Source of the DNA: Clostridium thermosuccinogenes
Lineage (GTDB): Bacteria; Bacillota; Clostridia; Acetivibrionales; DSM-5807
Assembly: GCF_002896855.1 (NCBI RefSeq)
Contig: NZ_CP021850.1
Location: 62,001-126,000 of the forward strand
Length of the DNA stretch: 64,000 nucleotides
Direction of reading: 5' to 3'
Shown: piece after piece, positions 3,622 through 34,058 of the stretch
Position numbering within the stretch: the stretch's first letter is position 1
Layout: the number at the start of each line of letters is the position of its first letter
Made by a program: the position numbers and the translations under genes
The notes under the pieces: model-generated
What the model saw: only the letters and a program-made list of their open reading frames with translations
The model's database searches: none
What the model was told of the DNA's origin: nothing

Positions 3622-5052
3622 TTAAGCAGATTGTTGGGCTTTGATGTATTCTTGGGACATTTTAATGAGTGTAACCCACCTGGCAGGCATATTAGGCCGG
3701 TCTTTGAGCTCTTCTAAGACCACCGGCACCCTGCCTTCCAGAGAGGAATGAGGCCTTAGGAAGTTGAAGTAGGCTACAAACAGTGTAAGGAAGGATACTG
3801 AACCTGCATAGTTGTTAAAACCGTTGGTGGGTCTGTAGTTTCCCTTGAAGGTGCGGTTTAACCTTTCGATGATCTGCTTTAAAGGCCTGTATTCTTCGGA
3901 GATAGGGTCGTCGTTGGTAAGACCGATTACCTGCTTTATGTCAAAGTGGATGCCGTACTGGGCGAAATAGTGTTGAGCAAGCATGTAAATAGGGTTCCCG
4001 TCAAAGATCAGGGTAAGATCCTCAGGAAGCTTATCGAACTTGGACAATGCTTCGTCAAGAGCATAAATTGCAGCTTTAACATCACGGTTGGCAGAGACGG
4101 GGTATGAGAGGATAATCTTCTTTACTGCGTCGAATATAAAGAATACGTAATGCCATTTGCCCAGAACCTTTATGTACGTCTCATCCCCGCAGATGGAATC
4201 TGAGAGATCATACTTGTAGTTGTCAATGAAGGGTTTAATGTTTGTGGCAACAGCATCGGCATAATTTGATACCGACTGATGAGAAACACTTACACCATGT
4301 ACTTCACGCATAAGGGCAGCTGTCATCCGGGTAGAAAGGCCAAAATTGACATGGTATGTAAGTATCAGCCCCAGGACGTGAGGAGAGACATAAAGCCTTG
4401 ATATATCTACACTCGGAGGCTGGGAAGGCTTTCTTACCAAAGGCTCAAAGTCAATATCAAACTCCCTGTAGATGTAATGGAGCTTGAAATCATGTGGAGA
4501 AGACTTGTAGCGCTGCTTGTCTTCCTCGGACATGGAATTGAGCCTGTCAAGGTAATAGGGGCACTTGGAGTTGGTGCACTTATGTACGTTGAAGTCCTTA
4601 CGCTCTTTCTTAAGTTCCAGTGTCCTTCCACAGTGGGGGCAGAGGAAGATGAGATTTTTTAGGTAACGGTTTTTCTTGTTGAAAGTGCACTTGCAGACTT
4701 TGCATAAGTACTGGCCTTTACCACCGGTATTGTCGTAAAGGTATTCATGAGGAGCTCCACATCTTGGGCAGGCCATAGTATCAGGGACTGTAGAAGCTTT
4801 TCTCCTTGTAATAGGGGTTATAAGCTTACCGGTTTCCTTGAGATGATTTGAAATAAGCTGCTTATAATCAAGCTTCTCAAGTGTCTCAATAATCGGCATG
4901 GTATCCACCACAAGCTTGCGGTAAGGCTTCCTAACAGGCTCATCGTAGTACTTGCGGACGGATCCTTTACTAAAGAGTGCACACATGAGGTAAATGATAA
5001 TTTTAGCTTGTATTTGAATGTATAGTAGTAAAACTGTTATAATGTTGTTCAA
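3622..5052 (-). CDS. IS6-like DDE transposase with zinc-ribbon N-terminus
   Basis: A 476-residue transposase. Two Cys4-type zinc ribbons are visible in the N-terminal third (ACPRCG...YLCKVCKC and FLCPHCG...KCTNSKCPYY). The catalytic domain follows with the DDE residues in GDETYIKVLGKWHY, LIFDGNP and IIERLNRTFKG, the pattern of the IS6/IS240 group. The ORF starts at TTG 5052 with AAAGGAG about 10 bases upstream; a later ATG (MCALFSKG) is possible. The ends and target duplication make it look functional. The first 22 residues are unusually hydrophobic, so the exact start is uncertain. Confidence 0.88.
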   Translation of the reverse strand: MNNIITVLLLYIQIQAKIIIYLMCALFSKGSVRKYYDEPVRKPYRKLVVDTMPIIETLEKLDYKQLISNHLKETGKLITPITRRKASTVPDTMACPRCGAPHEYLYDNTGGKGQYLCKVCKCTFNKKNRYLKNLIFLCPHCGRTLELKKERKDFNVHKCTNSKCPYYLDRLNSMSEEDKQRYKSSPHDFKLHYIYREFDIDFEPLVRKPSQPPSVDISRLYVSPHVLGLILTYHVNFGLSTRMTAALMREVHGVSVSHQSVSNYADAVATNIKPFIDNYKYDLSDSICGDETYIKVLGKWHYVFFIFDAVKKIILSYPVSANRDVKAAIYALDEALSKFDKLPEDLTLIFDGNPIYMLAQHYFAQYGIHFDIKQVIGLTNDDPISEEYRPLKQIIERLNRTFKGNYRPTNGFNNYAGSVSFLTLFVAYFNFLRPHSSLEGRVPVVLEELKDRPNMPARWVTLIKMSQEYIKAQQSA

Positions 5053-18811: not shown

Positions 18812-19300
18812 TCACTTAATATTTTTGAAAATTCCCGGTGGATCAAAGTAAATGATGTAATTTCCTCGTTTTTTGAACTTGCCGTATATGCTGTTGTAGC
18901 TGGCAAACGCCTTTTCAAGAAAATCCTGGGTGACGCTTAAGTACTCCGCCATTTCATAGAGGTTATTACAGCCGGCTTCATAAGCCTTTATGATATTTTT
19001 AAGAGATACGAGTCTGCTGAATGCCCACCGTTTTGCTTTGGTTTCCTGCTTTTGGATAATGGCTTTGCTGACCGAAGGATCCGTAAGGAGGTTGCCGCAG
19101 GATGTATAATAGTGGCCTAACTCCTCTGCCAAAACGCAGGTTTGCTCCGATTTTGTCTTGAGGCATTCATTTAAAGCGATTAACGGCTGATTGGTTCCGT
19201 CATCATAATACAGTCCGGATATTGATTCCGGAAGTTCGGCTCTTTGAACATTTATTCTGGATTTAAATGCTTCATTCTCGAGTTCTTCCAATTTATTCAT
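18812..19300 (-). CDS. ImmA/IrrE-family metallopeptidase-like protein
   Basis: 162 residues. ImmA-type proteins are zinc proteases that cleave or inactivate a partner Xre repressor to induce mobile elements, as in ICEBs1. The equivalent of the HExxH helix reads LAEELGHYY (about residues 58-66), so the first His is replaced by Glu, while the second His and following tyrosines remain. A downstream Glu-rich helix would supply a further ligand. It is the second gene of a two-gene operon after xre (5-base gap) and ends at a terminator. Whether the altered motif still binds zinc is uncertain. Confidence 0.85.
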   Translation of the reverse strand: MNKLEELENEAFKSRINVQRAELPESISGLYYDDGTNQPLIALNECLKTKSEQTCVLAEELGHYYTSCGNLLTDPSVSKAIIQKQETKAKRWAFSRLVSLKNIIKAYEAGCNNLYEMAEYLSVTQDFLEKAFASYNSIYGKFKKRGNYIIYFDPPGIFKNIK

Positions 19301-19305
19301 CCTTA

Positions 19306-19638
19306 TCAGTCCTTTTTACTTTGTTTGCCTTTTCTGTATGCCTCTAAAAATGCATTTACTGCTATCACTTCATCATCGGTGAGCGGTTTGTCGTAACCGT
19401 CTAACCGATGGGCTGCCAAAGTCTTAATACCGGAGGTGTCCTTTATTTCTGTCCGTCCCAAAAGATAATCCGTTGAGACATTGAAATAATCCGCCACCTT
19501 TTGGATCTTATCAACCGACGGAGAATTTTTATCCCATTTGTAAATAGCGCCCTTTCCGAAACCTAACTCCATTTCGAGTTTTGAAGGATTTATGCCTTTT
19601 TTTGCACACAGATCCTGAATTATTTCCAATATGCTCAT
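19306..19638 (-). CDS. Xre-family HTH repressor (tailocin master regulator)
   Basis: 110 residues from ATG 19638, chosen over ATG 19650 because GAGGT lies 5-6 bases before it. An N-terminal HTH_3 domain (about 5-60) reads IIQDLCAKKGINPSKLEMELGFGKGAIYKWDKNSPSVDKIQKVADYFNVSTDYLLGR. The C-terminal part (about 65-110) is short and charged. It is divergent from the tail operon and faces a ladder of palindromes that are its likely operators. By analogy with ImmR/ImmA pairs it probably represses both directions until removed by its partner. Confidence 0.92.
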   Translation of the reverse strand: MSILEIIQDLCAKKGINPSKLEMELGFGKGAIYKWDKNSPSVDKIQKVADYFNVSTDYLLGRTEIKDTSGIKTLAAHRLDGYDKPLTDDEVIAVNAFLEAYRKGKQSKKD

Positions 19639-19683
19639 ACTATACCTCATTTCTATAATACTGAAATATTTCAGTTTAAAAGA

Positions 19684-19711
19684 TTGACATGCTGAAAATT
19701 ATCAGTATAAT
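19684..19711 (+). promoter_or_regulatory. Rightward promoter overlapped by operator 2
   Basis: TTGACA (19684-19689), 16-base spacer, TATAAT (19706-19711). The spacer is almost wholly the second palindrome, so repressor binding there should exclude polymerase. Confidence 0.75.
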
Positions 19712-20078: not shown

Positions 20079-20615
20079 GTGATAACAAAAGAGGAATTGA
20101 ATGCGATAACACAAAACCTGGATAAACAGGTTAAAAAGGCAGTTGAAAAATTTTTATACACCAATGGTTTGGTAGAGGATTATCAGAGAGATTATTTCAA
20201 AGATACAGAAAAACTGCTGTATGCGTATCCGGATTTAAAGCTGAAGGTTGAGCAGGATATGGAGGATCTTAAAAGTGGCGTCCTGGCAATGAAAGTAAAC
20301 AGGTCGAAGGATATTATAAGGTTGTCTGCAAATTCCGGAAGCTGGAAACCGGAAGAATATGTGCAGGAAGAGATAATTCGCAGCAGAAAAGCAAGCATGG
20401 AGAGGACACGGCTTCAGGTGCAGAGGATTGACAGAGCGTTGGAAACCATAAAAGATGATCAATACTATGATATAATTCCGATGAGGTACTTTGACAGAAT
20501 AAAAATAGAAGAAATAGCCGATAGGCTGGTGTGTGATGAATCCACAGTAAGACGCAACAAAAACAGGCTTGTAAACAAGATTAAGATAGTGCTTTTCGGA
20601 GCCGATGCTCTATAG
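20079..20615 (+). CDS. ArpU/sigma-70 region 4-like phage transcription regulator
   Basis: 178 residues, start GTG 20079 behind AGGAGGG. The C-terminal 45 residues (YYDIIPMRYFDRIKIEEIADRL.CDESTVRRNKNRLVNKIK) form a sigma-region-4-like HTH. The N-terminal part is helical and charged. This size and layout match ArpU/RinA-type late regulators of Gram-positive phages, which switch on the structural genes. Two terminators separate it from the tail genes, which fits a role as activator or antiterminator for them. Partner promoter inferred at about 20668. Confidence 0.75.
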   Translation: MITKEELNAITQNLDKQVKKAVEKFLYTNGLVEDYQRDYFKDTEKLLYAYPDLKLKVEQDMEDLKSGVLAMKVNRSKDIIRLSANSGSWKPEEYVQEEIIRSRKASMERTRLQVQRIDRALETIKDDQYYDIIPMRYFDRIKIEEIADRLVCDESTVRRNKNRLVNKIKIVLFGADAL

Positions 20616-20667
20616 GATGGATGCCTGTTTTGTGCACGAAACATGCCCTTTTAATATGAAGTATGTG

Positions 20668-20676
20668 TGCTATAAT
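20668..20676 (+). promoter_or_regulatory. Candidate late promoter (extended -10)
   Basis: TGCTATAAT, an extended -10 element, with no good -35. The predicted start near 20683 is only about 20 bases before the first of two tandem terminators. Confidence 0.5.
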
Positions 20677-20702
20677 AAAATTACAATAGGTTATTAATGA
20701 TT

Positions 20703-20738
20703 AAGCCGTCCGGTTAGCCGGTACGGTTTATTTTTTTG
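20703..20738 (+). terminator. Tandem terminator 1 ahead of the tail operon
   Basis: Stem AAGCCGT.CCGG / CCGG.ACGGTTT with loop TTAG, then ATTTTTTT. Confidence 0.8.
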
Positions 20739-20739
20739 C

Positions 20740-20766
20740 AAAGACTTGGATTCAAGTCTTTTTTTT
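20740..20766 (+). terminator. Tandem terminator 2 ahead of the tail operon
   Basis: Perfect stem AAAGACTTG / CAAGTCTTT with loop GATT and eight Ts, immediately after terminator 1. Confidence 0.85.
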
Positions 20767-20848
20767 ATGTAAAAATCGTCACTTTGGTATTTCGGACGTT
20801 AACTGCAAAGAGAAGAAGACCGGTCTGAAAATATTTTTGAAAGGGGGG

Positions 20849-20941
20849 ATGCCTCATGCCTGCATTGTGGAAGCCATAAATTCCGGATACAGCATCAAAG
20901 CAGTTAGAATGCTTAAGAAAAGCAAAAGGAGAGGGGGATGA
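20849..20941 (+). CDS. Possible 30-residue small protein
   Basis: ATG 20849 to TGA 20941, product MPHACIVEAINSGYSIKAVR plus ten basic residues. The GGGGGG before the ATG is too close for an ideal ribosome binding site. It fills the gap before the tail terminator gene. I recognise no family; it may not be translated. Confidence 0.25.
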   Translation: MPHACIVEAINSGYSIKAVRMLKKSKRRGG

Positions 20942-20950
20942 GCAGAAAGC

Positions 20951-21361
20951 ATGATATCTATCATAAAGCAGGATATAGCAGATAAGTTGACGGAAATATA
21001 TCCTGATGGGTATACGGTATATGACGAATATATGCCGCAAGATTTTGAAAAACCGTCATTTCTCATTGTCTCCACCGGACAAAGCTACAGCAAAAGGATG
21101 AACAACAAATATAGTGGCAAGGTTTCCTTTGATGTGGCTTATTTTTCGGATAAGGATGCAACAGAGGTTAAAAAGGACTGTCTGGATAAACAGATGAGTC
21201 TATTAAGGGCTTTTTCTTCAATGAATGCTTTCCATGCTCAGAATATGCAGGCAAATATTACAGATAACATTTTGCATGTCACATTCGATGTCAGGTATTG
21301 GGAGATTAAAGAAAAAACAAGCACAATGATGCAAACACAACAAACAAATACGTATCTTTAA
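20951..21361 (+). CDS. Phage tail terminator-family protein
   Basis: 136 residues. The sequence (ISIIKQDIADKLTEIYPDGYTVYDEYMPQDFEKPSFLIVSTGQSYSKRMNNKYSGKVSFDVAYFS with continuing alternation) fits the small alpha/beta tail-completion proteins encoded just before the sheath gene in PBSX-like and clostridial tail loci. Such proteins cap the tube and sheath once the set length is reached, which matters in a particle with no head. The ribosome binding site GAGGGGG is rather distant (about 13 bases) from ATG 20951. Confidence 0.75.
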   Translation: MISIIKQDIADKLTEIYPDGYTVYDEYMPQDFEKPSFLIVSTGQSYSKRMNNKYSGKVSFDVAYFSDKDATEVKKDCLDKQMSLLRAFSSMNAFHAQNMQANITDNILHVTFDVRYWEIKEKTSTMMQTQQTNTYL

Positions 21362-21375
21362 GAAAGGGTGATTAA

Positions 21376-22419
21376 ATGTCAGGAACATGGAATAGTCAAA
21401 ATAAAATACTTCCCGGCGCATACATAAATTTCCTCACCAATGCTCCGTTATCCATTACACCGGGTGACAGGGGCATTGTTGTATTACTGCAGGAAATGGG
21501 AGCAGGTGCGTTCAGGGATATGTATACCGTAACAGCATCGGAGAATGATTATCCGGATGGTATTGCCGATGAGGATAAACTGCTTGCAAACGAGGCATTA
21601 AAAGGTGCCCGGACAGTAATCGTCTACAACCTGGGGACAGCGCATACGGATGATACGATTACTACAGCTTTGTCAGATCTTAAGACGGTTGCATTCAATA
21701 CTTTAGCCTATCCGTATGACGGTGCGGCATATGAAGCAAATAAAGCAGCCATTGCGGCATGGATAAAGTCAATGCGGGAGGATGAAGGTGTCAAGATACA
21801 GGGTGTGCTGGCCAATTACGCAGCCGATAGCGAAGCAATTATAAATGTAACCCATGGGGTGAAATTGTCGGATGGCACAGAGCTATCACCGGCACAGACT
21901 ACAGCATGGGTGGCAGGCATAACTGCCGGGGCAAATATCAATGAGTCGAATACCGGCAGAAAGTATGACGGAGCAATTGATGTCGTGCCCAGGATGACAA
22001 AAACGGAGATGGAGGCTGCCATTACTGCAGGCCAATTCATTTTTAAAGTTGATACAGCCCAGAACGTTACGGCAGTTTATGATATCAACAGCCTCACCAC
22101 ATCTGCACCGGAAAAGGGTGCCCAGTTTAAGAAAAACCGGGCAATCCGCACCATTGACGGTATAAACAATGATATTGTTGAGATATTCGAATCCAATTAC
22201 AAAGGCAAGCTCAACAATAATGCCGATGGCAGATCCTTGCTGAGGGCAAGCCTTATTGAATACTTCAATGAGCTGCAGAGGTTGCAGGCGATCCAGAACT
22301 TTACGCCTGAAGATGTGACCGTAGAAGCCGGATCAGATACTGACGCTGTAGTTATAAACTGCTATATACAGCTTGTTGATTCGGCTGAGAAGTTTTATAT
22401 TACAGTAAACCTGTCATAA
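21376..22419 (+). CDS. Contractile tail sheath protein (XkdK-like)
   Basis: 347 residues, shorter than many phage sheaths but close to the PBSX-like clostridial type. It begins GTWNSQNKILPGAYINFLTNAP, the usual sheath N-terminal strand ahead of the LPGxYxNF motif, and ends in the C-terminal strand-exchange region AVVINCYIQLVDSAEKFYITV. It polymerises around the tube and contracts to drive it through the target envelope. AAAGGGTG precedes ATG 21376. First of a closely spaced run of structural genes. Confidence 0.93.
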   Translation: MSGTWNSQNKILPGAYINFLTNAPLSITPGDRGIVVLLQEMGAGAFRDMYTVTASENDYPDGIADEDKLLANEALKGARTVIVYNLGTAHTDDTITTALSDLKTVAFNTLAYPYDGAAYEANKAAIAAWIKSMREDEGVKIQGVLANYAADSEAIINVTHGVKLSDGTELSPAQTTAWVAGITAGANINESNTGRKYDGAIDVVPRMTKTEMEAAITAGQFIFKVDTAQNVTAVYDINSLTTSAPEKGAQFKKNRAIRTIDGINNDIVEIFESNYKGKLNNNADGRSLLRASLIEYFNELQRLQAIQNFTPEDVTVEAGSDTDAVVINCYIQLVDSAEKFYITVNLS

Positions 22420-22436
22420 GGAAGGAGGAATAAAAC

Positions 22437-22913
22437 GTGGCAGATAATTATATTAGGTTATCCGATACCATTTCTTCTCATGAGGGCAAAGCCTATATTA
22501 CAATAAATGGAGTCAATAGGGAGTTGTTTGAGGTATCCGCCCTGTCCGCGCAGATTGATATGATAGTGCAGGAGAAAAGAATGCTTGGGCATAGGATGAC
22601 ACAGCATAAGGTGGTAGGTGCATCGGGAACCGGAAGCCTGACGATGTACTTTATGAACAGTGAAATGCTCAAGCAGGCAATACAGTACATCAGAACCGGC
22701 AACTACAGGGGATTAAAGCTGCAGGTCAAGAATGAGGACCCGCAGTCTACAGTAGGAAAGCAGGAGGTAGTACTGTTAAATGTAATTTTGAACAGCATAC
22801 CTGCTGCAATCCTTGATGATGGTTCGGATGATCCGATAACCTTCGATACGGATTTCACATTTGATGACATTGAAAGTCTTCATTCTTTTAAATTGCCAGA
22901 GAATTACAGATAA
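22437..22913 (+). CDS. Tail tube protein (XkdM-like)
   Basis: 158 residues, start GTG 22437 with GGAAGGAGG upstream. Contains the tube-fold pattern HEGKAYITINGVNRELFEVSALSAQIDMIVQEKRMLGHRMTQHKVVGASGTGSLTMYFMNSEM, typical of XkdM-family proteins that stack as hexamers inside the sheath. It directly follows the sheath gene and is followed by an attenuator-like hairpin, as expected for the two most abundant components. Confidence 0.93.
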   Translation: MADNYIRLSDTISSHEGKAYITINGVNRELFEVSALSAQIDMIVQEKRMLGHRMTQHKVVGASGTGSLTMYFMNSEMLKQAIQYIRTGNYRGLKLQVKNEDPQSTVGKQEVVLLNVILNSIPAAILDDGSDDPITFDTDFTFDDIESLHSFKLPENYR

Positions 22914-22941
22914 GGGGTAGGTATAAACCTACTCCTTTTCT
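22914..22941 (+). terminator. Partial terminator / attenuator after the tube gene
   Basis: Stem GGGGTAGGT / ACCTACTCC with loop ATAA, then TTTTC. The T tract is short, so some readthrough is expected into the chaperone and tape-measure genes. Confidence 0.6.
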
Positions 22942-22965
22942 AATTTTAAATTATGGAGGGATAGT

Positions 22966-23370
22966 ATGAGTTCGTTAAAAGCATTTTTGAATCCAATTAA
23001 AGTGGAAAACAAGGAAGTGATTGTGTCCAACAGGTTTCAGGAGGATGGAAAGCCCGTCCCCTTTGTGATAAGGCCAATCACTCAAAAAGAAAATGAGGAA
23101 TTGATAAGGAAATACACAAAAAAGGATAAAAAGGGCCAGGAAACGTTTAACCGCACCGAATATATTCATGCATTAACGGCAAGTGCTGTTGTATTTCCGG
23201 ATCTCAAGAACGCAGAGCTCCAAAAAAGCTATGGAGTTTTGGGAGAGGCAGAGCTGCTAAAGACAATGCTCTATGTAGGGGAGTTTGCTGAGCTGGCAAA
23301 GGAGGTCCAGGCGTTGAGCGGCCTCGATGTGGATATTAACGAGGATATTGAAGAAGTAAAAAACGAATAA
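22966..23370 (+). CDS. Tail assembly chaperone, short form (XkdN-like)
   Basis: 134 residues of the XkdN/YqbN type (lambda gpG counterpart): SSLKAFLNPIKVENKEVIVSNRFQEDGKPVPFVIRPITQKENEEL. It lies between tube and tape measure, the universal place for tail assembly chaperones, and ends in the acidic tail DVDINEDIEEVKNE. The stop codon TAA 23368-23370 comes four bases after a slippery heptamer, so this is the normal termination product of a frameshifting gene. It is expected to coat the tape measure protein during tube assembly. Confidence 0.88.
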   Translation: MSSLKAFLNPIKVENKEVIVSNRFQEDGKPVPFVIRPITQKENEELIRKYTKKDKKGQETFNRTEYIHALTASAVVFPDLKNAELQKSYGVLGEAELLKTMLYVGEFAELAKEVQALSGLDVDINEDIEEVKNE

Positions 23371-23564
23371 AGCAAGGTGATGCCGAGTTCAATCTGGCTC
23401 ACTTTGCTTTGCAGAAGCTTCATATCCTGCCGTCTGCCCTGGTGGATATGAGTGAAAAGGAAAGGACCTTTATTTATGCCAGCATACAGTTAAGGATAGA
23501 AGATGAAAAGAGGGAAAAAAGCAAGATTAATAAAGCTAGGGCAAAAGGGGGGAGGAGAAGATAA
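22966..23564 (+). CDS. Tail assembly chaperone, long form by -1 frameshift
   Basis: Slippage at A AAA AAC (23358-23364) would continue in the -1 frame: after Val-Lys-Asn come RIKQGDAEFNLAHFALQKLH and 46 further residues, ending at TAA 23562-23564. The total is about 199 residues. The extension has no start codon or ribosome binding site of its own, fills the otherwise empty 193 bases before the tape measure gene, and its sequence (LAHFALQKLHILPSALVDM) resembles the T domains of other chaperone pairs. Its stop overlaps the tape measure ATG. Confidence 0.82.
23358..23364 (+). promoter_or_regulatory. -1 programmed frameshift site A AAA AAC
   Basis: The zero frame reads GTA AAA AAC GAA TAA, so the heptamer is in the correct X XXY YYZ phase, with the zero-frame stop two codons later. 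Confidence 0.82.
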
Positions 23565-25594
23565 TGGTCACTCTTAAAGCTATGCTCCTTCAAATAGAAG
23601 GTTGGAATGAGGCTATTGAAATTTTTAACAGAAAAATAGAGGTGACAGCACAAAAAATGCTGAAGGCGAGCGGGGAGGCAGATCAGCTTGACGACAAGCT
23701 GAAATCTGCCGGAGCCAGCGCCGGCATAATAAGTAAGGCTTTGGACAGTTTGAAAAATCCCTCTTTTATAATAGACAAAGTGGTTGAGGGGATGAAAATA
23801 ATGGATCAATTCACCAATGCTGCCACCAAGCTGAAGTATATCAATAGCGACCTTAAAACACAGGCAGAGCTTCAGGATAAGGTTTTTGCCGCCGCTAACA
23901 GGTCCCGATCTGCCTACTCTGATATGGTCGATGTTATAGCCAAATTGAAGCCTATAACAGAGAAGCAGTTTTTATCCAATGATGAGTTGATTGCCTTTGC
24001 CGAATTAGTGCAGAAAGGCTTCAGGATAAGTGGCGCAGGCACAGAAGAGCAATCATCCGCCATGTCACAGCTAATCAATTCTATGGCAGCAGGAGGATTG
24101 CAGGGTGGTGAATTTGAGTCCATCATGAAAGACGCCCCTGTGATTGCAGATGCGATAGCAGAGTATACCGGAAAGAGTAAGGATGAACTTAAAAAGCTAT
24201 CGGCAGAAGGTTTGATTACTGCTGATATAATTAAAAATGCAATATTTTATTCGGCAGATGATATCAACTCCAGATTTGATGCCATGAGCTCCGAGGCTGA
24301 ATTAATACCTATGACCTTCGCTGATGTATGGAACAGGGTGAAAAATTCTGCGCTACAGGCGTTTAGCGGTGTAATGGAGAGCATTAGTAAGCTCATAAAC
24401 AATAAAGCCTTTACTTCGTTACTGGGCATGGTTACCGGTGCATTGAATGTTATTGTCTTCCCATTGGATAAAATTTTAAAAGCGATATCCTATATTGGAG
24501 ACGTAATCTCCTATCTATGGCCAATTATTGAACCAATACTTACTGCTGTAGGATCTGCACTGCTATTTTGGACTACCACACAAATTCCTCTGCTTACTTC
24601 CAAGATATCATTGATGGTTATGGAGCTATGGTCGGCGGTTCGGCCAATATTGGCGCAGGCAGCAGCCTGGGCTATGGCTAACATGCCTATTTTATTATTA
24701 GGAGCGATGATCGGTCTACTTATTTATGCGATTTTAAAATACGGGGATTGTGTCATCGAGGTGGTTGGCGTAATCGGCGGGGTAATTGGAGGTATCGTAG
24801 CAGTTTTGCTTAATGTTGGTCGGACTATTGTTAATATTCTTATCAGCCTTGCAGAATTCATAAAAAATGTTTTCAAAAATCCCGTATATAGCATAAACAG
24901 GCTATTTGTTAATTTGGCAATTAGCATACTGGATCTTATTCAGTCTATTGCTAAGGCTATTGATAAAGTTTTCGGAACAAGTTTGGCCGACGGGCTACAA
25001 AGTTTTAAAAACTTTTTGAATAACCAGTTGAGTATACGGGTGGGTCCGAAGCCGGAGGATTACACGGAAGAAGAAAAACACAATATGTTGGATATCGTTG
25101 ATACTGTAAATTTTGGTTACGACATAGGTAAAAAAGCAGGTACGACCAGTGTTCAGGAGTTATCTGGTCAATTAAGAAGCTTGTTTTCTCATGACGGCTC
25201 CATAAGTATACCTCATTATGACACTTTTGATGGATTCGAAACTCCAATGGACCCATTGACAGTTGCAAATTTTGATTACAACATGGACACCATAAGCATG
25301 CCTAATTATGATCCTTTTAAAGGTTTCGGAACTCCGATGGACCCATTGATAGTTGAAGGCGTCGGTCCGGGAGGTAAAGTTGAAGTTGATATGTCGGATG
25401 AGGACATGAAATACCTGAGAGACATTGCTGAAAGAGATTACATTAACAAATTCAGCACGGCCACATTGGCTCCCAGCATTTCCGTGAGTTTTGGAGATGT
25501 GCATGAAACGGCAGATGCCGACAAGCTGGCAGGCAGAATACAAAAGATATTGGCAGAGGAGATTGCTATGGCTGCAGAGGGGGTTTATGCTTAA
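23564..25594 (+). CDS. Tail tape measure protein
   Basis: 676 residues, the largest gene of the locus. The N-terminal half carries a tape-measure domain (about residues 60-260, with AMSQLINSMAAGGLQGGEFESIMKDAPVIADAIAEYTGKS). Several hydrophobic segments (about 285-430) could enter the target membrane. The C-terminus has a 30-residue tandem repeat (ISIPHYDTFDGFETPMDPL / ISMPNYDPFKGFGTPMDPL). At roughly 1.5 angstrom per residue the tail would be about 100 nm. ATG 23564 overlaps the long chaperone stop and has GGGGGAGGAG upstream. Confidence 0.92.
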   Translation: MVTLKAMLLQIEGWNEAIEIFNRKIEVTAQKMLKASGEADQLDDKLKSAGASAGIISKALDSLKNPSFIIDKVVEGMKIMDQFTNAATKLKYINSDLKTQAELQDKVFAAANRSRSAYSDMVDVIAKLKPITEKQFLSNDELIAFAELVQKGFRISGAGTEEQSSAMSQLINSMAAGGLQGGEFESIMKDAPVIADAIAEYTGKSKDELKKLSAEGLITADIIKNAIFYSADDINSRFDAMSSEAELIPMTFADVWNRVKNSALQAFSGVMESISKLINNKAFTSLLGMVTGALNVIVFPLDKILKAISYIGDVISYLWPIIEPILTAVGSALLFWTTTQIPLLTSKISLMVMELWSAVRPILAQAAAWAMANMPILLLGAMIGLLIYAILKYGDCVIEVVGVIGGVIGGIVAVLLNVGRTIVNILISLAEFIKNVFKNPVYSINRLFVNLAISILDLIQSIAKAIDKVFGTSLADGLQSFKNFLNNQLSIRVGPKPEDYTEEEKHNMLDIVDTVNFGYDIGKKAGTTSVQELSGQLRSLFSHDGSISIPHYDTFDGFETPMDPLTVANFDYNMDTISMPNYDPFKGFGTPMDPLIVEGVGPGGKVEVDMSDEDMKYLRDIAERDYINKFSTATLAPSISVSFGDVHETADADKLAGRIQKILAEEIAMAAEGVYA

Positions 25595-26253
25595 TGTATG
25601 CTATATTTTTTGACAAGGACAACATAACATACAGGTTGCCCGTGAATCCTGAGCAGATAGAGATAACTTCCACCCAGGCTATTGAAAGGTATGAGATATT
25701 AAAATCAGGACAGGTGGCAATACCAACACATATGGAGCTGAAAGAATATAGCTTTGAGTGTGAGCTGCCCCATACTGTTACGCATTATACGGAAACCTCC
25801 AGAGGCTTCAAGAATGCGGATTACTACCTTCGGTTGTTTGAACAGTGGAGAAAAAACCTTGAACCGGTAAGGTTTATTGCCTGCAACGGAATGGGTGATG
25901 ATATCAACTCTCTGGTGCTGATAGAAGACCTCAGAATAACTGAAAAAGCTGGGGAAGAAGGCGATAAATATGTAAGCTTTAGCCTGCTGGAATACGTAGA
26001 TTTGGAAAAGCAGATAATCCCAAAGCCAGCCGATCAGTTACTGCCTGGAGTTATAAAGGAAGAGCCCCCAAAGGGGGGCAATCCCAAACATAACGGAACT
26101 TATACGGTTGTAAGAGGTGATAGCCTGTGGGCTATTGCAAAGAAATTTTACGGTGATGGGTCCCTGTACACAAAAATTGTGGAAGCCAACAGGGACAAAA
26201 TAAAAAATCCCTCTTTGATCTATCCCGGACAGAAGCTGGTGATCCCCGAATGA
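25594..26253 (+). CDS. LysM-containing baseplate/tail protein (XkdP-like)
   Basis: 219 residues. The N-terminal 150 residues are of the XkdP type (YAIFFDKDNITYRLPVNPEQIEI), and residues 172-218 are a LysM domain (GTYTVVRGDSLWAIAKKFYGDGSLYTKIVEANRDKIKNPSLIYPGQKLVIP). In contractile tails this protein joins tube end and hub; the LysM may contact peptidoglycan. Its ATG overlaps the tape measure stop (TAATG) and its stop overlaps the next start, showing tight coupling. Confidence 0.92.
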   Translation: MYAIFFDKDNITYRLPVNPEQIEITSTQAIERYEILKSGQVAIPTHMELKEYSFECELPHTVTHYTETSRGFKNADYYLRLFEQWRKNLEPVRFIACNGMGDDINSLVLIEDLRITEKAGEEGDKYVSFSLLEYVDLEKQIIPKPADQLLPGVIKEEPPKGGNPKHNGTYTVVRGDSLWAIAKKFYGDGSLYTKIVEANRDKIKNPSLIYPGQKLVIPE

Positions 26254-27194
26254 GTATGGAGTTCCTCGTTAAAGTAGATAACAATGTATATGAAATAAGC
26301 GGGCTTGTTACATCCATATCATATTCAGACAGGCTGAATGACGGATGCAGCAAGCTCGAATTTTCATATGTTGGTGATATCCTGAAAGTTAAAAATGGGA
26401 GTGTCATAAGTTTTAAATATGATAATGTCGGCATCTTTTATGGATATGTATTCAAGCATGGACAAAATAAGAGAAAGGAGATTACTGTCACTGCGTATGA
26501 CCAGCTGAGATACTGCAAGGCAAAGGATACCATTGTGGTCAGGGGTGATTCGGTGACCAGCCTTGTGAAAAAGATGTGCAATTATTTTGGACTCAAAACA
26601 GGGGCTCTTACCAATACAGGTTATACGCTTGCCACAAGTATTCAAGATGACAAGACCTGGCTTGACATTATATATTCCGGAATAGATGACACTCTTACCA
26701 ATACCGGCAGATGGTATTCATTGAGGGATGAGTTTGGCAGCATAGCGCTGCGGGATCTGGTGGATCTGCAGCTTAACCTTGTGCTGGGAGATGAAAGCCT
26801 TGTTTATGACTATAAGTATGACAAGTCCATTGATGATGAGTTTTATAATCAAATCAAGATAGTGAGCGATAATGAGTCTACGGGGAAAAGGGATGTTTAC
26901 ATTACAAAAGACAGTGGTTCAATAGCCAAATATGGCCTGCTGCAGTATTTTGAGGTGCTTAATAAAAATGCGAATCCCTCCCAGGCGAAGTCAAAGGCGG
27001 ATATGCTTCTAAAGCTGTATAACAGGGAGGTTGAGACAATAAGCCTGGACTGCCTGGGGGATACAAGTGTACGAGCCGGGTCCAGTTTTTATGGTCGGAT
27101 TGGTGATATAGAACTCAACAGAAGATTGATTGTCCGTTCAGTCACGCATAAATTCCTGCCGGTTCATACGATGTCTCTGGAGGTGGCAATATGA
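26250..27194 (+). CDS. Baseplate hub protein (XkdQ/YqbQ-like)
   Basis: 314 residues of the XkdQ family, distant relatives of T4 gp27 / P2 gpD hub proteins. Seen: FLVKVDNNVYEISGLVTSISYSDRLNDGCSKLEFSY at the start and DTIVVRGDSVTSLVKKMCNYFGLKTG and WLDIIYSGIDDTL in the middle. It forms the ring to which the tube attaches. It overlaps both neighbours by four bases (ATGA). Family members are sometimes labelled hydrolase, but I see no catalytic motif. Confidence 0.88.
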   Translation: MSMEFLVKVDNNVYEISGLVTSISYSDRLNDGCSKLEFSYVGDILKVKNGSVISFKYDNVGIFYGYVFKHGQNKRKEITVTAYDQLRYCKAKDTIVVRGDSVTSLVKKMCNYFGLKTGALTNTGYTLATSIQDDKTWLDIIYSGIDDTLTNTGRWYSLRDEFGSIALRDLVDLQLNLVLGDESLVYDYKYDKSIDDEFYNQIKIVSDNESTGKRDVYITKDSGSIAKYGLLQYFEVLNKNANPSQAKSKADMLLKLYNREVETISLDCLGDTSVRAGSSFYGRIGDIELNRRLIVRSVTHKFLPVHTMSLEVAI

Positions 27195-27424
27195 TAAATG
27201 AAATTAAAACTATAGTGCAGAACTACCTGAACAACGCTAAGCTGTGCAGCATTATGCTGGGAACGGTAACCGATGATGGGATTAAGGTCAGCGATAAGCT
27301 GGTCATTCCTAAGGAACTTGTTGTCGGAAATTTAAAAAACTCCGTTCTCGTTGGACAGAAGGTCAGGCTTTTGAGGAATCACGGAGGACAGCAGTTCTAT
27401 ATTTTGGAGGTGGTGGCTGAATGA
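27191..27424 (+). CDS. DUF2577 baseplate protein (XkdR-like)
   Basis: 77 residues matching the DUF2577/XkdR pattern (LCSIMLGTVTDDGIKVSDKLVIPKELVVGNLKNSVLVGQKVRLLRNHGGQQFYILEVV). This is an OB-like small protein at the tail tip, possibly equivalent to part of the spike complex. It overlaps xkdQ-like and xkdS-like genes by 4 bases each. Confidence 0.85.
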   Translation: MINEIKTIVQNYLNNAKLCSIMLGTVTDDGIKVSDKLVIPKELVVGNLKNSVLVGQKVRLLRNHGGQQFYILEVVAE

Positions 27425-27816
27425 TACCTCAGGGTTTTATTGATTTTGACCTGATAGCTGCCAAGACTGCAGGAACTACCAGAACTTATAAACTATCGGG
27501 CAATAGGATACAAGGTTTTGCAGACGGGCTGGAAGCTTTAGAACAAGCTATATATAAGGTGCTCAATACTGAGAAATATGAGTACCCGATATATAGCTTT
27601 TCTTATGGCATTGAGCTGGAAAACCTTATAGGAAAGGACCCTCTGTATGTCCAGGTGGAACTAAAAAGAAGGATCCTAGAGTGCCTTCTTAAGGATGAAC
27701 GAATACAGGGAGTTGACAATTTTAAGTTTGAAACTTCCGGGGACCGCCTGTTTTGTGTTTTTGACGTAATAAGTACCTATGGAAAAATCACAGTGACAAA
27801 GGGGGTGGAAATCTGA
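27421..27816 (+). CDS. DUF2634 baseplate wedge protein (XkdS-like, gp25-related)
   Basis: 131 residues. Core motif LEALEQAIYKVLNTEKYEYPIYSFSYGIELENLIGKDPLYVQVELKRRILECLLKDERI is typical of XkdS, a relative of the T4 gp25 wedge/sheath initiator. Seeds sheath polymerisation at the baseplate. Translationally coupled to both neighbours. Confidence 0.9.
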   Translation: MIPQGFIDFDLIAAKTAGTTRTYKLSGNRIQGFADGLEALEQAIYKVLNTEKYEYPIYSFSYGIELENLIGKDPLYVQVELKRRILECLLKDERIQGVDNFKFETSGDRLFCVFDVISTYGKITVTKGVEI

Positions 27817-28835
27817 TGTTTGAAGACATGACTTATGAAAACATACTGAAAGATATGTTGAGCAGGGTGACATCCGATGTGGACAAAAGAGAAGGCTCGG
27901 TTATTTTTGACGCACTGGCCCCATGTGCCTATAAATTAGCGGAAACTTATTTTAAGCTGAACAATTTTATTGATCTGGTAAGCGCTGATACTGCTGTGGG
28001 TGAATATCTGGACCGTGTTGTGGCGGACTATGGGATAAAAAGAAAGGCTGCCACCTATGCAGTAAGAAAGGTTGAAGCAACAGCGCCAGTTGACATCGGT
28101 ACGCGATGGGGACTGAAGGACACAACATATGTTATCACAGAGAAAATGTCGGATACTGAATACAAAGCGAAGTGCGAGCAGTTGGGTTCCATCGGGAATC
28201 AATATTCCGGCCTTCTGGATAACATTGACAATGTGCCTGATGTGGCTGCAGCCCTGACAGACATAATCATTTCCGGTGAGGATGAGGAAACTGACGATAG
28301 CCTAAGAGCAAGATTCTATAACCAGATCCGCACTCCAAGCACTTCCGGAAATGCAGACCATTACAGAAAGTGGGCTATGGAAGTTGCCGGATGTGGAGAT
28401 GCGAAAGTGCTTCCTCTCTGGAATGGAAACGGGACCGTCAAGGTGTTGGTGGTTGACGAAAATATGGCGGTAGATGAGGCTTTGCCGGCTGCCGTGGCAG
28501 CACATATCGAGACAGTACGTCCGATAGGGGCAGCGGTAACAGTGGAAAGCCCGCAGGAAAAGGTCATATCCATATCGGCAGGTGTTGTTCTCGATGGTTC
28601 CAAGACACTGAATGATGTTTACAACAGCTTTTCTAAAGCATTCTCAGAGTATCTTAAGGATATTGTTTTTAAGAACTATAGCATAAGTTACGCACGCATA
28701 GGGAGCCTTTTGTTATCTACGGACGGTGTGGCAGATTATGTAAATCTGCTTGTGAACGGTGGTGCTGCGAATATAACAATTGGCGAAACTGAGGTGCCCG
28801 TAGCCGGAACAATTGCCTTGACGGAGGTGGTATAG
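27816..28835 (+). CDS. Baseplate J family protein (XkdT-like)
   Basis: 339 residues. Baseplate_J hallmarks: YENILKDMLSRVTSDVDKREGSVIFDALAPCAYKLAETYFKL near the start and EDEETDDSLRARFYNQIRTPSTSGNADHYRKWAMEVAGCGDAKVLPLWNGNGTVKVLVVD in the middle. It forms the wedge that triggers sheath contraction (T4 gp6 counterpart). ATG 27816 overlaps the previous TGA. Confidence 0.94.
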   Translation: MFEDMTYENILKDMLSRVTSDVDKREGSVIFDALAPCAYKLAETYFKLNNFIDLVSADTAVGEYLDRVVADYGIKRKAATYAVRKVEATAPVDIGTRWGLKDTTYVITEKMSDTEYKAKCEQLGSIGNQYSGLLDNIDNVPDVAAALTDIIISGEDEETDDSLRARFYNQIRTPSTSGNADHYRKWAMEVAGCGDAKVLPLWNGNGTVKVLVVDENMAVDEALPAAVAAHIETVRPIGAAVTVESPQEKVISISAGVVLDGSKTLNDVYNSFSKAFSEYLKDIVFKNYSISYARIGSLLLSTDGVADYVNLLVNGGAANITIGETEVPVAGTIALTEVV

Positions 28836-28836
28836 C

Positions 28837-29364
28837 ATGAATCTGATGGATCTGCTGCCTGACTATTATAAAGGCAATCTTACGATGGAAGAGCTGCAGG
28901 ATATTTTAAGCGCAGATATGGACAATCTGGCAACGGCCTTCGATAAGACGATAAACCAGTGCTTTGTGAACACTGCTACTGACCTATTGAGCCGGTATGA
29001 AAAGATTTTCGGGCTTCAAGTTGATGTCAATAAACCCGATGAGTTCCGACGTGAACGCATCCGGGCAAAGATTAGGGGTACCGGAACGGTAACAAAGCAG
29101 ATGATAAAGGATGTGGCGAGCTCTTATTCCAATGGTGAAGTGGAGGTAATAGAAGACCCTTCTAATTACAGCTTTAAAATAAAGTTTATTGGCACAAAGG
29201 GAATTCCTGCGAATATGACCGACCTGACATTGACCATTCAGGAAATCAAACCAGCTCACTTAGCTTTTGAATTTGAATTTACTTATAATACCTGGAAGGA
29301 TGTTGAGGGTATGACCTGGAGTGAGGCAAGTACTTATACATGGAATGAATTAAGAGTGAGGTGA
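28837..29364 (+). CDS. DUF2313 tail protein (XkdU/YmfQ-like, gpI-related)
   Basis: 175 residues of the XkdU family: LMDLLPDYYKGNLTMEELQDILSADMDNLATAFDKTINQCFVNTATDLLSRYEKIFGL, then FRRERIRAKIRGTGTVTKQMIKDV. It is the baseplate component to which tail fibres attach (P2 gpI counterpart). It starts one base after the J-protein stop. Confidence 0.9.
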   Translation: MNLMDLLPDYYKGNLTMEELQDILSADMDNLATAFDKTINQCFVNTATDLLSRYEKIFGLQVDVNKPDEFRRERIRAKIRGTGTVTKQMIKDVASSYSNGEVEVIEDPSNYSFKIKFIGTKGIPANMTDLTLTIQEIKPAHLAFEFEFTYNTWKDVEGMTWSEASTYTWNELRVR

Positions 29365-29368
29365 TTAT

Positions 29369-30802
29369 ATGGCTGAATATACAAATAATTATAATTTGGA
29401 GAAGCAGCAAGCGAATGAATATATCAGCATCGAGGGAATAAATGATAACTTTGATATAATTGATGCTCAAATGAAAAGCAATGAGGAAGCAGCTTCTAAG
29501 GTGCAAACAGACCTCAATGAGCACATGAAAGACAATATGAAGCATATAGTCTACGCTGTAGCAAGCGGTACAAATACTTATACGGCTGCAATCAATGGTA
29601 TTACATCGCTTGTTGAAGGGATGAGCATTAAAATCAAGTTCCCCAATGCAAACACAGGAGCAAGTACCCTTAATATTAACGGTCTGGGAGCAAAAGAAAT
29701 ACGTAAGAGCAATGGAAATGCTTTGTCCAGTGGAAACATAAAGGCAGGACAGATATGCCATCTGGTTTACACTGGTTCGGTTTTTCAGTTATTGGGTGAA
29801 GGGGGTGAGTATGGAACAGCCACATCCGATAAAGTATTAGCTGGTTATACTATAGGGACAGAAAGTGGAGTTATGGAAGGTACGATGCCCAATAATGGAC
29901 CTGCTGCAGCAGATACAATCAACCTTACGAACCAAAACCAGGAGTATACTATTGCACAAGGGTATCATTCCGGATTACGCAAAATAAAGGCTGCAATTAG
30001 TGGATTGGCAGCAAATGTAATAAAAGCTGGCACCACGGTGGGTGGTATAGTAGGTACATTTACATCAGATGCGAATGCAGCAGCAGGTCATATATTGTCT
30101 GGAATGACAGCGTATGTCAATGGTAATAAGATTACAGGCAATATTCCAAGCAAAGGTGCGGCAACATATACACCGGGAACAACCAATCAGACTATTGCAG
30201 CTGGACAGTATTTATCAGGAACTCAAACTATTATAGGCGATGCTAATTTAGTAGCTGCAAATATAAAAAGTGGTATTTCTATATTTGGAGTTACAGGCTC
30301 TTATCAAACTCCTGTAATAAAAAGCATACAAAGAGGTTCATACACCTTTGATGATACAACTTCTTCTGTAAATATAACTATATCTGCAGTAGATTTAAAT
30401 GCAGCCATTGTATTGTTTTCTCATAAGTATATAAGTGGAATAACAACGCCTTATAATGTACTTATTTGGGCAAGACTTACTAGCCCGACTACACTTGAAT
30501 TAGCAAGGGCGCAAGCACAAGGTCAACAACAAGTGGAATGGCAAGTAGTTGAGTTTAATAATGTAAAAAGCGTACAAAGAGGTACTGTAAATATGAATTC
30601 ATCTGCTACGGTTACTATAAATGCAGTTGATTTGAGTAAATCGTTGTGTTTTGCATCTTTTAAAGATTCAGGGTCGGGAGGTGATATGAGTAATGCATTT
30701 GTGGCAATTAAATTTAATAGTACAACTCAATTGTCGTTAAGCGCATACGCCACAATTTCTAATACACGAAGTGTGCATTGGCAAGTAATAGAATTTAAGT
30801 AA
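29369..30802 (+). CDS. Tail fibre / receptor-binding protein
   Basis: 477 residues. The N-terminus (EYTNNYNLEKQQANEYISIEGINDNFDIID) is the usual attachment segment. The middle (about 165-310) has glycine-rich repeats of the type AYVNGNKITGNIPSKGAATYTPGTTNQTIAAGQYLSGTQTI. The C-terminus is a duplicated domain of about 80 residues: IKSIQRGSYTF...VEWQVVEF and VKSVQRGTVNM...VHWQVIEF, each probably a receptor-binding module. Base composition becomes more AT-rich from about 30300, hinting at exchange of the tip. It determines the target range. Confidence 0.88.
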   Translation: MAEYTNNYNLEKQQANEYISIEGINDNFDIIDAQMKSNEEAASKVQTDLNEHMKDNMKHIVYAVASGTNTYTAAINGITSLVEGMSIKIKFPNANTGASTLNINGLGAKEIRKSNGNALSSGNIKAGQICHLVYTGSVFQLLGEGGEYGTATSDKVLAGYTIGTESGVMEGTMPNNGPAAADTINLTNQNQEYTIAQGYHSGLRKIKAAISGLAANVIKAGTTVGGIVGTFTSDANAAAGHILSGMTAYVNGNKITGNIPSKGAATYTPGTTNQTIAAGQYLSGTQTIIGDANLVAANIKSGISIFGVTGSYQTPVIKSIQRGSYTFDDTTSSVNITISAVDLNAAIVLFSHKYISGITTPYNVLIWARLTSPTTLELARAQAQGQQQVEWQVVEFNNVKSVQRGTVNMNSSATVTINAVDLSKSLCFASFKDSGSGGDMSNAFVAIKFNSTTQLSLSAYATISNTRSVHWQVIEFK

Positions 30803-30815
30803 TGGAGGTGTATAT

Positions 30816-31082
30816 ATGTTTTACTATGCTCAGTTAAATGAAAACAATATATGTGTTGGAGTGTCTATGCTTTCAGGTGAAGTTAATGCTTCAAATATGG
30901 TGCAAATTTCTGATTATTCAGAAGATTATATTTATCGAAAGTATGATGCTGAAGCTCAGACATGGGGCACAGAGAAGTATGAGCCAGAAACTAATACTAG
31001 GCTAACAGAGTTTGAAGAAGCTAGACAACGCATATCCGACATTGAAATGGCATTAGCTGCTATTATGGGAGGTGCTGTATGA
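30816..31082 (+). CDS. Small tail-associated protein (XkdW position), possible fibre chaperone
   Basis: 88 residues, GGAGG ahead of ATG 30816. Sequence FYYAQLNENNICVGVSMLSGEVNASNMVQISDYSEDYIYRKYD, then a helical C-terminus FEEARQRISDIEMALAAIMGGAV. Small proteins with this start and layout follow fibre genes in Firmicute phages and may help fibre folding or attach to the fibre; the function is not established. It overlaps the next small ORF by 4 bases. Confidence 0.7.
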   Translation: MFYYAQLNENNICVGVSMLSGEVNASNMVQISDYSEDYIYRKYDAEAQTWGTEKYEPETNTRLTEFEEARQRISDIEMALAAIMGGAV

Positions 31083-31225
31083 TGCCAGAATGGAAAAAGA
31101 ACATATTTGTGAGAGTTATAAGTACAAGAATGACAACCGAAGGCAGGACAGCAGAGGATATTTTGCTTGACTACCCAACACTAACGGAAGCAGAAAAAGC
31201 TGAAATTCTGACAGGGCTTGCTTAA
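31079..31225 (+). CDS. 48-residue small phage protein (XkdX position)
   Basis: ATG 31079 overlaps the previous stop (ATGA), with GGAGG 6 bases upstream. The product MMPEWKKNIFVRVISTRMTT continues GRTAEDILLDYPTLTEAEKAEILTGLA. It occupies the place of XkdX-type mini-proteins between fibre and lysis genes. The RTAEDILLDYPTL part resembles small phage proteins with a G-RT-EDV-P motif. No function is known to me. Confidence 0.65.
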   Translation: MMPEWKKNIFVRVISTRMTTEGRTAEDILLDYPTLTEAEKAEILTGLA

Positions 31226-31250
31226 CGGCAGGCCCTTATTATTTTTTCGA
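31212..31250 (+). terminator. Possible intrinsic terminator before the lysis cassette
   Basis: Arms AGGGCTTGC / GGCAGGCCCT around TTAAC, then TTATTATTTTTT. Some readthrough is expected, since no clear promoter precedes the lysis genes. Confidence 0.5.
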
Positions 31251-31263
31251 AAGAGGGTGTCTT

Positions 31264-31536
31264 ATGGGAGAAGGCGAGCATAAATGTATAATGGAGGAAA
31301 GAGTGAGGGCATTGGAGACAGATCAGGCTGAAACCCGTATTTATGTCAAGGAAATCCGTGAGGATATACAGGAAATTAAAGCAGACATCAAGAAGGCGGC
31401 TCAGCACCCTCAACCTAAAGAAGACAGCAGGATTTGGAGTCAAATTGTGATAGAGCTCATTAAACTGGTAAAGTACTGTGTTGCTGTTCTAGGAGGTGTT
31501 ATAGGCGCCGCCAAGATTATCGGAAAGGGTGGCTAA
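31264..31536 (+). CDS. xhlA: Hemolysin XhlA-family protein
   Basis: 90 residues: an N-terminal coiled coil (EERVRALETDQAETRIYVKEIREDIQEIKADIKKA) and one C-terminal membrane helix (about 65-86, KLVKYCVAVLGGVIGAAKII). This is the XhlA layout. In PBSX, XhlA together with the holin and amidase lyses the producer to release particles. Confidence 0.88.
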   Translation: MGEGEHKCIMEERVRALETDQAETRIYVKEIREDIQEIKADIKKAAQHPQPKEDSRIWSQIVIELIKLVKYCVAVLGGVIGAAKIIGKGG

Positions 31537-31580
31537 TAGTACGCCTATTAGTGTGCCTATTAAAGTGAAGGAGGTAAAAG

Positions 31581-32210
31581 ATGAAGGTATATATTTCGCC
31601 CAGCACGCAGGAAAAGAATATCGGAGTTGGAAATTATGGTACGGAAGAAAAAAGGATGAATGAAATTGCGGACATCGTTTGTCCTCTCCTGGAGTACAAC
31701 GGATTCACAGTCAAAAGGAACAGGCCGGAAATGACATTATCACAGATTATAGCCGATTCCGATGCGTGGAAACCAGATATACATGTGGCAATACACAGCA
31801 ATGCAGTGGGTGGAAGTGGTGCAGGACAGGCTAGAGGTTGTGAGGTTTACGGATATCTGATTGATGGGAGGGTTACCAACAGCCAGAGGCTTTCAGAAGC
31901 AATATATAAGGAAGTGTCTGCTATTACTCCCACGTCCGACAGAGGAGTAAAAAACGGAGTGCCTCTTAATCTTGCTGAGATTGTGACGGTCAAAGCTACC
32001 AGTTGTATTGTTGAGGTTGCCTTCCACGACAATATGGAGGATGCTATCTGGATAATGAACAATATACCTCGGATTGGCGAGGCAATAGTAAAAGGTATCT
32101 GCAATTACTTTGGTGTAAGTTTCAGAAAGCCTTCCGATACTGTGGATTGGAAAGCAAAATATGAGAATCTTGTGGCACAATTGAAAAATCTTGTGAAAGG
32201 GTTAGATTGA
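31581..32210 (+). CDS. N-acetylmuramoyl-L-alanine amidase (Amidase_3 endolysin)
   Basis: 209 residues. The zinc amidase fold spans about 1-175: YISPSTQEKNIGVGNYGTEEKRMNEIADIVCP, the metal His in DIHVAIHSNA, and the catalytic Glu in SCIVEVAFHDN. A short C-terminal tail may target the wall. It cleaves the MurNAc-L-Ala bond. GGAGGT lies upstream of ATG 31581. It overlaps the following membrane protein gene, consistent with a lysis cassette. No signal peptide, so release needs the holin. Confidence 0.92.
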   Translation: MKVYISPSTQEKNIGVGNYGTEEKRMNEIADIVCPLLEYNGFTVKRNRPEMTLSQIIADSDAWKPDIHVAIHSNAVGGSGAGQARGCEVYGYLIDGRVTNSQRLSEAIYKEVSAITPTSDRGVKNGVPLNLAEIVTVKATSCIVEVAFHDNMEDAIWIMNNIPRIGEAIVKGICNYFGVSFRKPSDTVDWKAKYENLVAQLKNLVKGLD

Positions 32211-33933: not shown

Positions 33934-34058
33934 TGGGGCAAAGTAGGGGTCAACGCGTTAAGTGCCGGTTGGATGGGAAGTTGCCGCCGGACGAAAAATC
34001 CTTATGGCAAAGGCGCCATAGTAAGTGATTTGCGGTGTTGATTCTGCATTCCGTTGCC
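33934..34058 (+). promoter_or_regulatory. Tetrahydrofolate (THF) riboswitch
   Basis: Conserved elements in order: AGTAG near the 5' end, GCGTTAAGTG, GGATGGGAAGTTGCCGCCGG, ACGAAAAA, GCGGTGTTGA and CTGCATTCCG. Helices TCAAC/GTTGA, CCGG/CCGG and GGCAA/TTGCC can form. These match the THF aptamer (folT type). It precedes a folT gene, as in other Firmicutes. Confidence 0.85.

Follow-up and report, generated by a model that had tools for sequence, protein, structure and literature searches.

A putative promoter-loaded antitermination switch ahead of a tailocin-like tail operon, and its recurrent layout beside RinA/ArpU/Ltr-type regulators

Downstream of a regulator gene of recognizable family and fold, an apparently tailocin-like element of Clostridium thermosuccinogenes carries a set of direct repeats, an extended -10 element and two tandem intrinsic terminators ahead of its tail operon, and these components are conserved as one unit in related loci. 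The presence of this promoter-terminator layout in many related Gram-positive phages suggests that their late activator also enables polymerase to pass stop signals, in a manner reminiscent of the lambda Q protein, which lets RNA polymerase pass such signals. In Staphylococcus, Lactococcus, Listeria and Clostridia the late genes of many temperate phages are under the control of RinA, Ltr and ArpU proteins, and should a terminator overcome by the regulator be an integral part of their promoters, the accepted activation model would be incomplete. An earlier note on this DNA had interpreted the locus as a possible case of late-gene antitermination by the adjacent ArpU-like protein or an RNA signal; the comparative evidence favours antitermination controlled by the protein, whose binding, activation of initiation and effect on readthrough are the parts that we infer. 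Among openly licensed papers none was found that links RinA, ArpU or Ltr to antitermination or reports measured readthrough, and since the search covered papers of this kind an earlier proposal may exist elsewhere.

The element, its regulator and the proposed late promoter

The window, i.e. the entire stretch of DNA that was analysed, spans 64,000 nucleotides (bases 62001-126000) of a single-contig chromosome of 4.73 Mb, and its relevant features are collected in Table 1. No terminase, portal or capsid/head genes were found among the genes scanned in the tail operon, and the element looks tailocin-like or like a defective, head-less prophage of the PBSX type. The closest relative of its tail module, with a sheath 73% identical to that of the window, is found in a prophage (G045; L505 2867-8426) in which the head genes lie immediately 5' of the tail genes and there is no leader. 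On account of this arrangement it is uninformative regarding the switch; the comparison suggests that the operon of the window arose through loss of a head block. A THF riboswitch is present 3' of the tail/lysis region (33937-34058, plus strand).

Table 1. Positions in the window of the regulator gene, the proposed late promoter and the tail operon
Feature	Position	Strand	Description
Sigma-70 promoter	19684..19711	+	TTGACA-16-TATAAT, 12/12 consensus; before regulator gene
Late regulator gene	20079..20615	+	178 aa, sigma-region-4-like C-terminal domain; distant RinA/ArpU superfamily
Three direct repeats	20622..20647	+	TGCC-N7-TGCA-N7-TGCC, 11-bp period; from sequence, period and place as in relatives
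Extended -10 of proposed late promoter	20668..20676	+	TGCTATAAT; from sequence, relatives share TG(T/C)TATAAT
Second -10-like hexamer	20682..20687	+	TACAAT, 5 nt past the -10; kept in relatives
Intrinsic terminator 1	20702..20730	+	stem AAGCCGTCCGG/CCGGTACGGTTT, tail ATTTTTTT
Intrinsic terminator 2	20740..20769	+	9-bp stem AAAGACTTG/CAAGTCTTT, T tail
Late tail operon	20951..32210	+	tail terminator, sheath, tube, XkdN-like chaperone, tape measure, baseplate, XhlA-like, amidase endolysin
Terminator-like hairpin after tail tube gene	22909..22940	+	dG -16.8; inside tail operon
Terminator-like hairpin before XhlA-like gene	31213..31236	+	dG -16.4; inside tail operon

The sigma-70 site at 19684 is probably the early promoter of the regulator gene, because it matches the consensus in full and precedes that gene. 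On the minus strand, opposite to this promoter, genes for an HTH repressor and an ImmA/IrrE-like metalloprotease were observed (18812-19650), a pair likely to constitute the damage-responsive switch of the element.

Profile searches with the regulator recovered phrog_36 with an E-value of 3.6e-15 (7.7e-39 for RinA itself) and weak matches to sigma-70 region 4, DUF1492 and TIGR01636. The match to the latter NCBIfam model (E 0.0019, 18.4 bits) falls under its cut-off of 31.9, and TIGR01637 was not among the matches listed; as these curated cut-offs are not reached, the regulator is classed as a distant relative rather than as RinA or ArpU proper. At the level of profile comparison with hhalign, the family of the regulator gave 97.3% against ArpU and 85-90% against RinA, and its predicted placement is thus that of a distant member of the RinA/ArpU/Ltr superfamily. 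An AF2 model of the protein (pLDDT 83.9) was compared using Foldseek, and its C-terminal domain fits region 4 of E. coli sigmaE on -35 DNA (2h27) with an rmsd of 1.3 A over 58-59 columns, at a probability of 1.00 but with an E-value of about 0.5. A sequence search of the PDB returned weak sigma-factor-like matches only, and a single-protein scan of genome contigs gave no match.

The extended -10 that the earlier note had placed after the ArpU-like gene is indeed present, 53 nt past the stop codon of the regulator, and the two intrinsic terminators that it had described were located behind it. The first hairpin has a dG of -15.8 and 7 T within an 8-base tail, and the second (20740-20761) a dG of about -9 and a T8 tail. 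The 86-nt leader as a whole folds at -26.2 kcal/mol, compared with a mean of -13.1 for shuffled sequences (z = -4.71; 0 of 200 shuffles equally stable). A good -35 for this -10 is absent, there being 2-3 matches out of 6 at spacers of 16-17. The further claim that no other clear promoter precedes the tail operon also stands, in that no sigma-70-like promoter matching at least 9 of 12 positions occurs on the plus strand between 20677 and 22474.

The direct repeats, which the earlier note had overlooked, lie upstream of the -10, roughly between -61 and -36 relative to the predicted start, and form the putative binding or loading site of the regulator. The bare repeat pattern is not significant by itself, as it occurs twice in the window against 0.56 times expected by chance and at least two copies turn up in 13 of 100 shuffles. 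In combination with a -10 it is found at two sites in the 4.7 Mb genome, one of them that of the window and the other an AT-rich one which looks accidental. The weight of the pattern as a predicted site derives from the relatives described below.

Conservation of the layout beside related regulators

Homologous regulators were gathered from related genomes and viral contigs, and regulators of other families were collected starting from phi13 Ltr, TP901-1 Alt, 80alpha RinA and A118 gp66. The DNA 3' of these regulators displays a recurrent order of direct repeats, -10, short leader, hairpin with T tract and late gene, with a repeat period of 11 bp (9 bp in the phi13 group). When the region from -60 to +400 nt around the stop codon was scanned, a sense terminator was recovered for 48 of 56 non-redundant regulators (several families, below 80% identity), compared with 27 on the opposite strand; the rate was 35% for shuffled sequences and 31% for control stretches of upstream coding DNA. 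This count is weak alone because operon ends carry terminators anyway.

Within the regulator's own family, 18 of the 22 distinct sense repeat arrays found beside homologous regulators are followed by a terminator (dG <= -9) no more than 110 nt after the -10, where 1.68 would be expected from shuffles; arrays and flanks were deduplicated at 85% identity, and kinship of the loci still inflates these counts. Of the 18 arrays with a terminator, 16 have a hairpin that starts 17-38 nt past the -10, and the -10 itself is placed 13 + 11n nt past the last repeat core, a phase kept to within one base in 18 of the 22. On inspection of the four misses, the leader proved to be interrupted at L014, the loop oversized at L023 and the tail weak at L029, and at L041 a small frame precedes the hairpin. 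At L014 (genome G011) an apparent inserted element starts inside the leader hairpin, and the counterpart at L015 is intact. The hairpin sequences diverge among the loci and the layout persists; by this comparison the predicted promoter module of the relatives includes the terminator as a conserved component.

A second -10-like hexamer (TACAAT or TATAAT) is present 2-5 nt past the -10 in 20 of the 22 arrays against 0.82 expected, a contrast to be read with the fact that the -10 and the hexamer were chosen from the same data and the hexamer pattern picked post hoc. It is often followed by GG (e.g. L020, L022 and L031), and the TACAAT of the window might represent a start-site region or signal, a second -10 or a sigma-dependent pause element. 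In several relatives a -35-like hexamer (4-5 of 6 positions) overlaps the repeats, and basal initiation is therefore possible in them.

Comparable arrangements are encountered in phages whose late regulators have been described. Terminators lie before terS in 80alpha (RinA; dG -13.2) and TP901-1 (Alt; dG -12.0), and phage 55-2 (LtrC) has two in tandem before terS (dG -14.6 and -12.4). In phi13 the mapped promoter sits upstream of a terminator (dG -12.1; L096 4092-4116), which is ahead of the next gene at 4143. This promoter, P23, is Ltr-dependent and has been mapped and mutated; it is undetectable without induction and has its repeats at -107 to -42, and the paper on it does not mention termination (PMC13123087). 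The repeats of TP901-1 Alt are at -76 to -32 according to the citation given there (PMC13123087). These RinA/ArpU/Ltr systems share with the window a regulator gene directly 5' of the late operon, direct repeats 5' of the -10 and a terminator before the first late gene, and the window differs from them in its tail-only operon.

Proposed mechanism and rival explanations

We consider it moderately probable that the module is an antitermination switch loaded at the promoter in the manner of Q or AlpA, combined with activation of initiation, at the late promoter of this tailocin-like element. The regulator would be expressed from the early promoter and bind the 11-bp repeats 5' of the extended -10, where it would aid initiation by RNA polymerase despite the poor -35. 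It would then stay on the polymerase and allow it to pass both terminators, which lie 20-80 nt further on, and possibly also the two hairpins inside the tail operon. In the absence of the regulator, polymerases that start sporadically and those that arrive from the early operon would alike stop at the terminators, which would thereby keep the lethal lysis and tail genes silent, although the terminators, whose efficiency is predicted, could be partly leaky in vivo. If true, this would explain the silencing of such genes in lysogens and tailocin carriers.

Activation of initiation besides antitermination goes beyond the earlier note and is probable from analogy with phi13. The published phi13 fusion ends at about TSS+50 (the start being set about 5 nt past the TATA box, following PMC13123087), approximately where the T tract begins, and probably is without most of that tract; yet the reporter is still Ltr-dependent (PMC13123087). 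The fusion thus demonstrates activation of initiation by Ltr and leaves termination aside. The regulator is therefore likely to activate initiation too, and in the window initiation probably needs help because the -35 is poor. For the same reason, and because the phi13 promoter is undetectable in uninduced cells, the constitutive RNA of 55-85 nt that the earlier note had expected without induction is doubtful.

Since Ltr dependence persists in the shortened reporter, activation of initiation alone accounts for the published phi13 data, and this defines the main rival explanation, namely that the regulator activates initiation only and the terminators are leaky attenuators that damp basal expression, strong initiation giving enough readthrough. 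It accords with the description of the regulators of phi13 (PMC13123087), 80alpha, 55-2 and TP901-1 as late-gene activators of initiation, and with the poor -35 of the window. However, the terminators are predicted to be strong (dG -12 to -17, T-rich tails), their position is fixed across divergent sequences and they occur in tandem in both the window and phage 55-2; moreover, it is difficult to see why selection would maintain a constant brake on genes that are expressed more strongly than any others. We accordingly regard this explanation as unlikely. If antitermination does operate, reporter fusions ending short of the terminator, as in phi13, would have missed half of the control, and a terminator overcome by the regulator is directly testable with existing reporters. 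We tentatively entertain the wider proposal that throughout the RinA/ArpU/Ltr superfamily a sigma-region-4-like protein, loaded at repeat-bearing -10 promoters, might render polymerase terminator-resistant, as a Gram-positive counterpart of Q whose action would so far have been taken for activation alone.

Alternatively, the terminators might serve to close off the early transcript of the regulator gene and to shield the late genes, with the real late promoter further downstream. They do come after the gene that immediately precedes the tail operon, and such endings of early operons are ordinary; however, the interval 20770-20950 was found by sequence scan to be without a consensus promoter or second repeat array, and the promoter of phi13 that was mapped and mutationally tested lies upstream of its terminator. 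Eight loci with genes inserted between regulator and promoter (160-2300 nt; L003, L021, L023, L024, L028, L029, L030 and L032) bear directly on this point, as the hairpin is behind the promoter and not behind the regulator gene in all eight, six of which pass the terminator criteria (the loop of L023 is too large and the tail of L029 weak). The terminator thus stays with the promoter, which argues against a mere end of the early operon; the plain form of this explanation was rejected, and we hold it to be improbable.

It is very improbable that the promoter and terminators serve to produce a separate small RNA, some 50-80 nt long, that is functional in its own right. The layout would fit a short non-coding RNA gene, and as no Rfam family reached the cut-off in a search with the leader a new family is possible; however, the transcribed part varies among the loci except for the start region, only the layout of hairpin plus T tract being kept, and antitermination control would in any case yield a truncated leader RNA as a by-product. 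Control of readthrough by RNA (an alternative leader fold, a leader peptide or the ribosome) instead of a promoter-bound protein has its precedent in the many such attenuators of Gram-positive bacteria, but it was rejected as scarcely credible, there being about 20 nt before the first hairpin (a spacer of 17-38 nt after the -10 in relatives) and hence no room for an alternative fold, none of which was seen besides the two terminator hairpins on folding the leader; of the two agents that the earlier note had named, a protein or an RNA signal, the evidence thus favours a protein acting at the repeat array.

Comparison with Q, AlpA and P2 late control

Phage 21, annotated as a true Q system, presents a Q gene, repeats, a -10 and then a terminator, and its Q21-QBE-pR' region resembles the window in combining a direct-repeat element, a -10, a terminator at most about 50 nt from the start and late genes. 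Its QBE is between the -35 and the -10, whereas the repeats of the window are upstream, and its -35 is the consensus, which the window lacks. In lambdoid phages generally the Q site is at or adjoining the spacer between -10 and -35 and the repeats of the window are further upstream, and the -10-like hexamer of the window, 5 nt past the -10, is nearer to the latter than the annotated pause element of phage 21. A scan found a terminator 3' of the Q gene in P22 and HK639, and in lambda only a weaker one.

At the protein level, hhalign comparison of the regulator with Q82 and Q21 gave weak values of 10-73% over about 45 residues of the helix-turn-helix. Set against the known Q families (PF06530, PF03589), the profile comparison is suggestive for Q82, with 47-73% over about 45 aa, and gives nothing for Q21, with less than 2%. 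The Q82 antiterminator family, phrog_79, matched the window protein with an E-value of 0.0023 and, along most of the protein, the wider-family homolog at L013 (1255-1791) with 8e-5, which may point to a distant connection of Q82 with the RinA/ArpU proteins.

AlpA of P. aeruginosa was first thought to be an activator and then shown to bypass intrinsic terminators just past its promoters; it controls lysis and a second operon, and one of its targets has two predicted terminators (PMC7969949). It differs from the system of the window in that its element is between the -35 and the -10, its -35 is functional and it belongs to an unrelated protein family. The late promoters of P2, which depend on a plain activator, are like the window in having the activator site 5' of the start and unlike it in being without a terminator, none being present within 150 nt past any of the four late starts.

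A tRNA-like sequence was observed in TP901-1 between the late promoter and terS (L095 1640-1710), and phage 21, for comparison, has tRNA genes past its late terminator (L488 1224-1379).
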